Origin: Sandaracinaceae bacterium
GTDB taxonomy: Bacteria > Myxococcota_A > Polyangia > Polyangiales > Sandaracinaceae
Length of the DNA: 64,000 bases
Reading direction: 5' to 3'
Assembly (NCBI GenBank): GCA_019637095.1
Contig: JAHBWG010000003.1
Span: 1 to 64,000, forward strand
The notes beneath the pieces were generated by a model. That model saw only the letters and a list, made by a program, of their open reading frames with translations, made no database searches and was not told the DNA's origin. Below, piece after piece: positions 54,702 to 56,539 of the stretch (the first letter of the stretch is position 1; every line of letters starts with the position of its first letter). The position numbers and the translations under genes were made by a program.

Positions 54702-55937
54702 GTGCGCGCGCGGCCGAGCGGATCGGGGCCGGCACGGGGCCTGCTGTCTGCGTACGGCGTGCGCGCTCGCCTCGCGACGGTGCTGCTCCTCGCGCTCGCC
54801 CCCGGCTGCGTGGGCGAGCTCTCCCTCGACGTGCCGGGGCGACCCACCGACGCCGGCGCGCGGCCGGGCCCGCCGAGCGTCTACCTCGACGGCGGCCCGC
54901 CGCCGGGCCCCAGCGACGCCGGCGGTTTGCCCCCGGTGGGCCACGACGCCGCGCCGCCGCCGACGCGCGACGAGTGCGGCGACCTGCGCACGGTCTCCAC
55001 CGTCCACTTCGGCACGCCGCAGCCCACGCACCTGCCGATGCGGCCGGGACAGATCTACGCCGTCGGCTCCTTCAACGGCTGCTCGGGGCTCGTGGTCGGC
55101 GACCGCTGGGTGCTGAGCGCCACGCACTGCAACCAGCGGCCGGGCACGCGCTTCTGCGTCGATCGCCAGGCGCGCAACCCGCAGATCTGCTTCACCGTCG
55201 CGAACGTCTACCGCGAGCCGTCGGGCAGCGACCTCACGCTGCTCCAGCTCTCCGAGAGCGTGACCGCGCGCTTCCCCGAGCTCGAGCCAGTGCTGCCGAT
55301 CACCGACGACCTCGACGCGTCGTGGGTCGGGCGCATGACGGAGGCCGGCGGGTTCGGACAGCAGGAGAGCGGCGGCTTCAACGAGCGCGAGTTCACCGCC
55401 AACCCGATCTCGCAGCTCTCGCGCGACCGCGTCGTGGTCGACGGCCGCGGGCGCTCGGGCGTCTGCTACGGCGACAGCGGCGGCCCGATCATGGTCGTCG
55501 CGGACGACGGATCGATCCGCACCATCGGCGTCGTCTCCGACGGCGACGGCACGTGTACCTACGTCGCGACGTTCACGCGCGTCGACCTCTACCGCGCGTT
55601 CATCGAGCGACACATGGGCCCGATCGCGCCGCCCGGTCCGCCGCCGTGCGGTGACGTCACGCGCGAGGGCGCGTGCGTCGACGGCAGCGCGCGCTTCTGC
55701 GGCCCGGAGGATCACCTCGTCGTCGAGCGCTGCGCGGGGAGCTGCGGGTGGGACTTCGGCGCGAACGGCTTCCGGTGCCTCTCCGGGCCCGACCCGTGCG
55801 GCGGCCTCTCCCCGCGCGGCCAGTGCGACGGCGACACCGCGCGCTGGTGCGAGCGCGGCGCGCCGCGGGCGCGCGACTGCGGCGCGTGCCGGCAGCGCTG
55901 CGCGACGAGCGCCACCGTCGGCGCGACCTGCGAGTGA
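54702..55937 (+). CDS. Trypsin-like serine protease with Cys-rich tail
   Basis: A 411-residue exported protease of the S1 type. The triad is visible: His in LSATHC (about 142), Asp in GSDLTLLQL (about 175) and Ser in GDSGGPI (about 259). An Asp/Gly/Pro/Ala-rich linker (about 45-90) precedes it. About 100 residues of Cys-rich tail follow, with repeats such as EGACVDGSARFC and RGQCDGDTARWC, probably a binding module. The GTG at 54702 has GAGG seven bases upstream; a GTG at 54759 gives a tidier lipoprotein signal (ALAPGC) and may be the real start. Confidence 0.84.
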   Translation: MRARPSGSGPARGLLSAYGVRARLATVLLLALAPGCVGELSLDVPGRPTDAGARPGPPSVYLDGGPPPGPSDAGGLPPVGHDAAPPPTRDECGDLRTVSTVHFGTPQPTHLPMRPGQIYAVGSFNGCSGLVVGDRWVLSATHCNQRPGTRFCVDRQARNPQICFTVANVYREPSGSDLTLLQLSESVTARFPELEPVLPITDDLDASWVGRMTEAGGFGQQESGGFNEREFTANPISQLSRDRVVVDGRGRSGVCYGDSGGPIMVVADDGSIRTIGVVSDGDGTCTYVATFTRVDLYRAFIERHMGPIAPPGPPPCGDVTREGACVDGSARFCGPEDHLVVERCAGSCGWDFGANGFRCLSGPDPCGGLSPRGQCDGDTARWCERGAPRARDCGACRQRCATSATVGATCE

Positions 55938-55948
55938 GCGCGGCTCGC

Positions 55949-56018
55949 GGGGACGATCCTCGTCGTCTCGTCATTCTCGTGGGGCGCTGCGAATGACGAA
56001 ATGACGAGGATCGTCCCC
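55949..56018. repeat. 27-base inverted repeat, REP/MITE-like
   Basis: Left arm 55949-55975 and right arm 55992-56018 are inverted copies. The first 16 bases (GGGGACGATCCTCGTC) and a further CGTCATT block match exactly, and only a 4-base patch differs. A 16-base loop separates them. It fills the gap between the protease and the PH-like gene. The strength and length exceed a usual terminator, so a mobile or dispersed palindromic element is likely. Confidence 0.7.
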
Positions 56019-56053
56019 TACCACCCACCGCCCTCTCGTGCGAGCCTCCACGC

Positions 56054-56539
56054 GTGACGGGCTATCGCGTCGCCGGCGAGGAGCCGGCCGATCCGCTCGC
56101 GATCGATCCCGCGCGCTGCCGGCAGCAGTCCTTCCGGCACCAGCTGCTCGTGCAAGTCGTCGCGGTCCTCCTGACCGCGGGGCTCTGGCTGCCGGGACTG
56201 CTCGTCTGGCTGTTCCTCGCGTCCAGGCGCGTCACGCGAGTCACCGAAGGATACCGCGCGCGCATCGGCGCCGGTCGGCTCGAGATCGGCAACGCGGTGT
56301 CCATGCAGAGCATCCCCTTGGACACGATCACCGGCGTGAGGGTCCACGACGGCTACGTCACCGTGACGGTTCGCGTCGGGCAGCCGGCACAGATCCGCGG
56401 AGTCGTGGATCCCGTCGCCGCGTCCCGCGCGATCCTCGACGCCCGCGACATGCACGTTCGCACCGTACGGGAGGAGATCCTGGACGCGGAGGACGAGCTC
56501 GAGGTCAGGTCGGCGCGGCGCGGGCGCGGCGCCCGTTGA
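56054..56539 (+). CDS. Small membrane protein with PH-like domain
   Basis: A 161-residue protein with two adjacent hydrophobic helices (about 30-57; LLVQVVAVLLTAGLWLPGLLVWLFLA) followed by a beta-rich domain (EGYRARIGAGRLEIG, IPLDTITGVRVHDG) resembling bacterial PH domains of the YdbT type. GTG start. The family assignment is tentative. Convergent with mfd. Confidence 0.65.
   Translation: MTGYRVAGEEPADPLAIDPARCRQQSFRHQLLVQVVAVLLTAGLWLPGLLVWLFLASRRVTRVTEGYRARIGAGRLEIGNAVSMQSIPLDTITGVRVHDGYVTVTVRVGQPAQIRGVVDPVAASRAILDARDMHVRTVREEILDAEDELEVRSARRGRGAR

Follow-up and report, generated by a model that had tools for sequence, protein, structure and literature searches.

An intergenic palindrome of a Sandaracinaceae bacterium as a probable REPIN-like element of a Y1/HUH transposon

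Is a long palindrome between two genes of a Sandaracinaceae bacterium a transcription stop of that gene pair, or is it a piece of mobile DNA, and if so, of which kind? The palindrome lies at positions 55949-56018 of the 64,000-nucleotide stretch of DNA analysed here, hereafter referred to as the window, which belongs to contig C121 of G000, a genome of 9.25 Mb. An earlier note, made from the letters of the window, had read it as a REP- or MITE-like mobile palindrome; it had proposed to count its copies in the genome and to look for a Y1/RAYT transposase, the alternative being a single genomic copy that serves this gene pair as a terminator. Here, we describe the palindrome, its copies in G000, a transposase gene bordered by the same repeat, and the corresponding enzymes and repeats of other genomes. 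Based on these, the palindrome is very probably a REPIN-like (MITE-like) non-autonomous element of a Y1/HUH transposon, of the kind known as TIRYT (TnpA-REP subclass 2.1).

The palindrome in the window

The palindrome comprises 70 bases and is composed of two arms of 28 nt each, with 26 of 28 positions complementary (93%), and a spacer or loop of 14 nt [55977-55990]. The two mismatches are at arm positions 17 and 19. The palindrome seen in the earlier note is real, but its description as 27-base arms with a 4-base mismatch patch has to be corrected to these values. The left arm, or unit [55949-55976, + strand], begins with the tip GGGGACG, which is followed by two direct boxes at an 8-nt period, TCGTCGT [55960-55966] and TCGTCAT [55968-55974]. 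The right unit [55991-56018, - strand] is inverted, and both of its boxes, [56007-56001] and [55999-55993], read TCGTCAT. Compared with the genome consensus of the repeat, the left arm has one mismatch (C121:55950-55976) and the right arm none (C121:55991-56017). In a search limited to spacings of at most 200 bp, the palindrome is second in the list of 16 inverted repeats of the window. The predicted RNA fold of segment [55940-56025] has an energy of -56.5 kcal/mol (z -7.6), and the DNA fold of the palindrome has z values of -8.8 and -8.3 on the two strands; 0 of 200 shuffles were as good, for RNA and for DNA.

As the earlier note held, the palindrome fills a gene gap, taking up 70 bp of the 116 bp between two genes that are both on the + strand. 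The upstream gene [54702-55937] encodes a trypsin-like protease (Pfam Trypsin, 52.6 bits) and ends with a TGA codon 11 bp before the palindrome; its start codon is uncertain, the codon model favouring 54759. The downstream open reading frame of 161 aa [56054-56539, + strand] has a GTG start 35 bp after the palindrome. It is of unknown family, with 0 matches in a Pfam search at E ≤0.01, and is supported as a gene by a relative in G002, with 42% identity over residues 1-101, the single one from a search of 13 other genomes. This relative has a different gene beside it and is located at a contig end, and no counterpart of the window gene pair with the same neighbours was found in the 13 genomes. 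Segment [55700-56200] has no terminator-like site, that is, no G+C-rich stem followed by a T-tract, which bears out the earlier remark that a T-tract is absent. At gathering thresholds, Rfam had 0 matches to the window, and a comparison of phage records with a 161-bp stretch at E ≤1e-5 also gave 0.

Copies, arrangement and placement of the repeat in the genome

The arm pattern GGGGACGATCCTCGTCATYTCGTCATTC, also given as GGGACGATCCTCGTCATYTCGTCATTC for the genome count, has 125 matches in G000 at up to 3 mismatches, 68 on one strand and 57 on the other, while the same pattern read backwards, used as the control, has 0. The proposed copy count thus gives a large family and not a single copy kept as a terminator. 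Among the 100 matches listed, 84 have no mismatch and 16 have one. The arrangement of the units was described on 78 stretches of G000, which take in the 100 matches listed as well as the best doublets, a sample that favours doublets and well-conserved units. They contain 132 units at 81 sites: 40 single units, 23 doublets with tips outward, one doublet with tips inward, 12 direct pairs and 5 larger arrays. Two of the 40 single units are those that border the transposase gene described below. The spacers of the 22 plain doublets other than that of the window measure 5-31 nt and are not alike. Single units have 0.22 edits on average and doublets 1.0, a trend opposite to the better conservation of doublets expected for REPINs, although the single units were sampled mostly from matches with at most one mismatch. 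A lone unit can form a weak hairpin only, with a 5-bp stem and a 3-nt loop, which is lost in the TACCC variant found in other genomes.

One of the 5 larger arrays, at G000:C121:150080-150534 (L030, L244), is made up of seven directly oriented units whose spacers are repeated in part; it adjoins simple repeats of CGTCCT/CGTCCC. Units were also seen at or near the ends of contigs C11, C16, C28, C30, C126, C157 and C196 of G000. The assembly may therefore break at longer arrays, and the family may have more copies than were counted.

Genes around the 81 sites were called with a simple codon-usage model of our own, trained on three genes of the window, which is crude and missed the transposase gene itself. 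By this model, 76 sites fall between genes, 5 overlap the end of a gene and none is inside one. At the 65 sites with a gene called on each side, the neighbours are convergent in 28 cases, co-directional in 31 and divergent in 6. Distances to gene ends were taken at 62 sites whose two neighbours are each no more than 400 bp away. A facing 3' end is at most 2 bp from the repeat in 25 of 81 cases, as against 0 of 43 for facing 5' ends. Uniform placement in the gap would give 17.7 such 3' ends on average, and 25 were reached in 8 of 2000 simulations.

The transposase and the repeats that border it

A search of G000 for the Y1 transposase family gave 8 places, and the gene on contig C150, the weakest of them, is part of a 987-bp element [G000:C150:7542-8528] that ends in two perfect units with tips outward, 31 of 31 positions being identical. 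The repeat unit is thus identical to the end of a transposon. The transposase gene [G000:C150:7564-8457, - strand] encodes 297 aa, and its TGA stop codon is inside the repeat. All 8 places were searched for units over about 3-4.5 kb of surrounding sequence. The other seven were considered as the source of the mobilising enzyme and rejected, as none of them is bordered by units on both sides; the sole further unit was one single unit beside an IS200-like copy on C124. A search for inverted repeats around six of the other Y1 places gave a single G+C-rich match of 16 nt, which is distant from the C90 gene.

The IS200-like copies G000:C124:66183-66750 and C90:92354-92809 (L065, L069) have 658 bp in common at 100% identity. 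The common stretch of the C124 copy stops within the first bases of one repeat unit, which recalls ISPpu9 in the REPs of Pseudomonas putida, as described in the accessible text of PMC8450116. A second group of weak Y1-transposase-like genes was seen at G000:C155:47422-49477, C140:63879-64790 and C62:235-1482, one of them in tandem copies; no inverted repeats with a score of at least 15 were found within about 600 bp of their borders.

The C150 protein matched the NCBIfam model NF047646 (REP_Tyr_transpos) with 28 bits (E 1.7e-6), below the curated cut-off of 80, and 11 of 12 homologues matched it at E ≤0.01. Pfam Y1_Tnp gave 11.8 bits, with a cut-off of 23. The two HUH histidines, H60 and H62, as well as Y120, are invariant in the 12 homologues. 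A profile built from these homologues matches DnaA in its C-terminal part (E 1.2e-5), although Bac_DnaA_C was matched by only 2 of the 12 singly and not by the G000 protein alone. An AlphaFold2 model of the relative L110, made with 25 sequences, has a mean pLDDT of 88.7 and a pTM of 0.67. With VIA-align, its residues 1-191 aligned to the REP-associated tyrosine transposase 4er8 with a Z of 15.6 and an rmsd of 2.8 over 155 residues. Residues 209-298 aligned to the DnaA DNA-binding domain 3pvp with a Z of 11.8 and an rmsd of 2.1 over 89 residues; for a helical domain, this Z is within the range that VIA-align calls possibly a common arrangement. Foldseek ranked 4er8 first (E 1.5e-6), and no DnaA chain is among the 50 matches listed, so the likeness to DnaA rests on VIA-align and the sequence profile together. 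By profile and model, the transposase is predicted to be composed of an N-terminal HUH domain of the REP-transposase type and a C-terminal DNA-binding domain that resembles domain IV of DnaA.

Homologues were sought in 38 genomes (G000 and relatives) and in 282 genomes of the phylum. Five further ones, at about 57% identity, were found in four other genomes: G005 (contigs C122 and C87), G008 (C137), G025 (C55) and G209 (C22). Inverted repeats with a GGGACG tip border 6 of 6 homologues at ≥55% identity, that of G000 included, and the C122 gene of G005 has whole doublets at its borders, one preceding it and two following. The body of the repeat consists of TCGTCAT boxes at G005 C122 and of GCGTCAT at G025 C55; it is of the same kind, TACCCAT, at G005 C87 and G008 C137, and is TTCTTT at G209 C22. 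The common-type pattern (TCGTC/GCGTC) has 125 matches in G000, 82 in G005 and 24 in G025, and 0 in the other 279 of the 282 genomes, in a table from which G008 is absent. The TACCC kind has 9 matches in G005 and 10 in G008 (2 perfect in each) and 0 in five other genomes. The G209 kind, which was deduced from the flanks of the transposase first and searched for afterwards, has 31 matches in G209 and 0 in six other genomes. The counts of each kind include 2-6 units beside the gene. G016 and G028 gave one single weak DNA match each. Enzyme and repeat are thus matched genome by genome: in the searches made, a repeat kind was seen only in genomes with the cognate transposase, except for the common type in G008 (84% complete), where units are present and a matching transposase was not found.

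The anatomy of the transposon ends was examined by automatic extraction at 88 homologue loci from Myxococcota and other phyla. An inverted repeat with a score of at least 15 surrounds the gene at 59 loci, and in 33 of these 59 a tip is at the outer end. The tips of the 33 are GGGACG, GGGTCA or GGGACA, and the body behind the tip varies. These bodies match themselves at a shift of 8 nt with a value of 0.43 compared with 0.28 in shuffles (z 6.6), while z is below 1.1 at lags 3-7 and 9-13; a set of 33 repeats taken by eye gave z values of 8.8 at lag 8, 1.4 at lag 9 and lower elsewhere. Because the loci are related sequences, these z values do not stand for probabilities. As the self-match is confined, over shifts of 3-13 nt, to 8 nt, these ends contain a pair of direct boxes, set at a period of 8 nt. 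This feature is probably new: the term "direct repeat" is absent from the main text of PMC6006769 and PMC3733652, the two papers against which the period was checked. Among loci L130-L189, most of which are from Firmicutes, the Firmicutes relatives often have self-complementary ends whose cores resemble GGGGACGGTTCTTTTTG, and the enzyme family thus includes a second type of end.

In a set of 25 protein/repeat pairs, the repeat bodies resemble each other in step with the Y1 domain (partial Mantel 0.21, p 0.001); for one of the proteins (L139, 184 aa), an incorrect start had been used. Reading of the 8-nt boxes by the C-terminal domain found no support in the same set (partial Mantel 0.00, p 0.50). 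A clade of Y1 transposases could recognise a fixed GGGGACG tip and two tandem 8-nt boxes, the latter read by a captured DnaA-type domain, instead of a structured hairpin foot as in IS608 and the GTAG-RAYTs. The boxes would then vary freely by lineage while tip and period stay, giving each genome a private REPIN population. Given the outcome of the Mantel test for the DnaA-type domain, we regard this scheme as tentative and rather unlikely. Speculatively, the boxes would also offer the stem of a doublet an alternative pairing register, offset by 8 nt.

Origin of the palindrome and comparison with known systems

No empty site was found for the window palindrome or for any G000 copy. The genomes G005 and G008, which are of another genus, are about 97% identical where compared and carry a related family. 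They were compared in the fetched regions, which hold 32 and 19 repeat clusters, respectively, a few of them counted twice in overlapping stretches. Six G005 clusters aligned through both flanks, and 6 of 6 are occupied in both genomes; the remaining clusters had no counterpart in the fetched regions, or their alignment did not continue past the repeat. The two genomes differ clearly at one place, where a doublet and its flank seem to have been duplicated in tandem (G005:C80:35548-35827 compared with G008:C223; L095, L096). That the palindrome family is mobile is therefore a matter we infer from its other features.

An intrinsic terminator of one gene pair, or a palindrome arisen by chance, would suit a hairpin 11 bp past a stop codon; it is rejected by the 125 copies against 0 in the control, the fold z of about -8 and the missing T-tract, which leave it a negligible chance. 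The MITE-like terminal repeats and size would also suit a MITE of a different, DDE-type insertion sequence that shares its ends with the Y1 gene by chance. The repeat, however, accompanies the Y1 gene in 6 of 6 homologues although the repeat bodies differ, and we consider such a coincidence extremely improbable. A classical GTAG-type REP/RAYT system has more in common with the family, which is extragenic, palindromic, of high copy number and rich in doublets, and has a Y1 enzyme with a REP-transposase fold. But the unit has no GTAG tag, its only internal hairpin, of 5 bp with a 3-nt loop, is missing from the TACCC variant, and the enzyme has the DnaA-like C-terminal domain that the available text of PMC6006769 describes for subclass 2.1, so that a classical system is very unlikely. 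The Y1/RAYT enzyme that the earlier note had in mind is accordingly present as a Y1 enzyme bordered by two perfect units, but it is a TIR-associated one (TIRYT, TnpA-REP subclass 2.1) and not a classical GTAG-REP RAYT.

The hairpin could instead work at gene ends as RNA or DNA, either as a bidirectional transcription stop or as a stabiliser of mRNA 3' ends; it would have spread long ago and been kept by selection and not by transposition. The very stable fold, the 3' ends but no 5' ends within 2 bp of the repeat, the scarcity of divergent neighbours (6 of 65 sites) and the compared sites being common to both G005 and G008 all suit such a role. Against it are the absence of a T-tract, the half of the sites that are single units with a weak 5-bp hairpin, and the restriction of repeat kinds to genomes where the cognate transposase was found, apart from the G008 common type. 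We think it doubtful as the account of the family, but it is compatible with a REPIN-like element of a Y1/HUH transposon, the two not being exclusive, and copies may be retained in part through a role at gene ends.

As a REPIN-like element, the palindrome would be two terminal inverted repeats of a Y1/HUH transposon joined with a short spacer, with the 987-bp element on C150 as its autonomous relative. The transposase, made in trans, would most likely recognise the inverted pair when it is single-stranded and folded into a hairpin; its conserved tyrosine would then cut beside the GGGGACG tip, and the doublet would be moved. Copies would survive in gaps, often directly behind genes, at little cost, and an element behind a gene may give the transcript a very stable 3' hairpin. 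The REP- or MITE-like mobile palindrome proposed in the earlier note thus gains support from the 125 matches and from the Y1/RAYT-like gene between perfect units, its movement being the inferred part. With MITEs, the family shares two terminal repeats with little between them, which correspond to the termini of a longer element of G000. It differs from MITEs in its Y1 enzyme, with which a target-site duplication is not expected.

GTAG and CGTC REPs, and the TIRYT or TIRtron genes with long inverted repeats, were described by Di Nocera, De Gregorio and Rocco in 2013 (PMC3733652); in the accessible text, some TIRYT repeats form dispersed families and some have the motif GGGGWSAS. According to the available part of PMC6006769, subclass 2.1 is the second largest Y1 subclass and probably corresponds, for the most part, to the TIRYTs; its C-termini are DnaA-like, and whether this domain recognises the target is raised as a question. 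The family described here shares with them the Y1 HUH transposase, the C-terminal DnaA-like HTH, and long terminal inverted repeats that open with a G-run and occur in part in dispersed dimers or clusters. Its tip, GGGGACGA, does not fit GGGGWSAS, which PMC6006769, in the same part, reports for the majority of cases and not for all, so that the motif is not strictly defining. That text also states that no REP-like sequences were found near subclass 2.1 genes, whereas the family here has 125 units, its doublets show a clear polarity, and its repeats have a direct period of 8 nt.

REPINs were defined by Bertels and Rainey in 2011 (PMC3116915, accessible text). Like the REPIN/RAYT systems, the family has short extragenic inverted doublets that form hairpins, a cognate Y1 enzyme bordered by the same repeat, and tandem clusters. 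Unlike them, it has no GTAG-type REP core, half of the examined sites are well-conserved single units, and its doublets are putatively mobile. The CGTC-tagged REPs of PMC3733652 resemble it in having CGTCATTC at the inner end of the unit and in forming doublets. They have, in the accessible text, a stem of 8-9 bp, a loop of 4-5 nt and a 3-bp tail, compared with an internal stem of 5 bp and a loop of 3 nt here, and are reported without a dedicated transposase, whereas a transposase is linked to the repeat here. No paper was found that treats REP elements, RAYT and Myxococc together.

In the light of the published descriptions of TIRYTs, subclass 2.1 and REPINs, the family appears to be a new and large member of the TIRYT kind that acts like a REPIN population. 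To those descriptions it adds a polarity of doublets, enzymes and repeats that are matched genome by genome, and an 8-nt period. An enzyme of the subclass 2.1 type is tied here to a large repeat population with copy counts, the pairing recurs in four other genomes, and the pair of 8-nt boxes provides a concrete candidate for the binding site.
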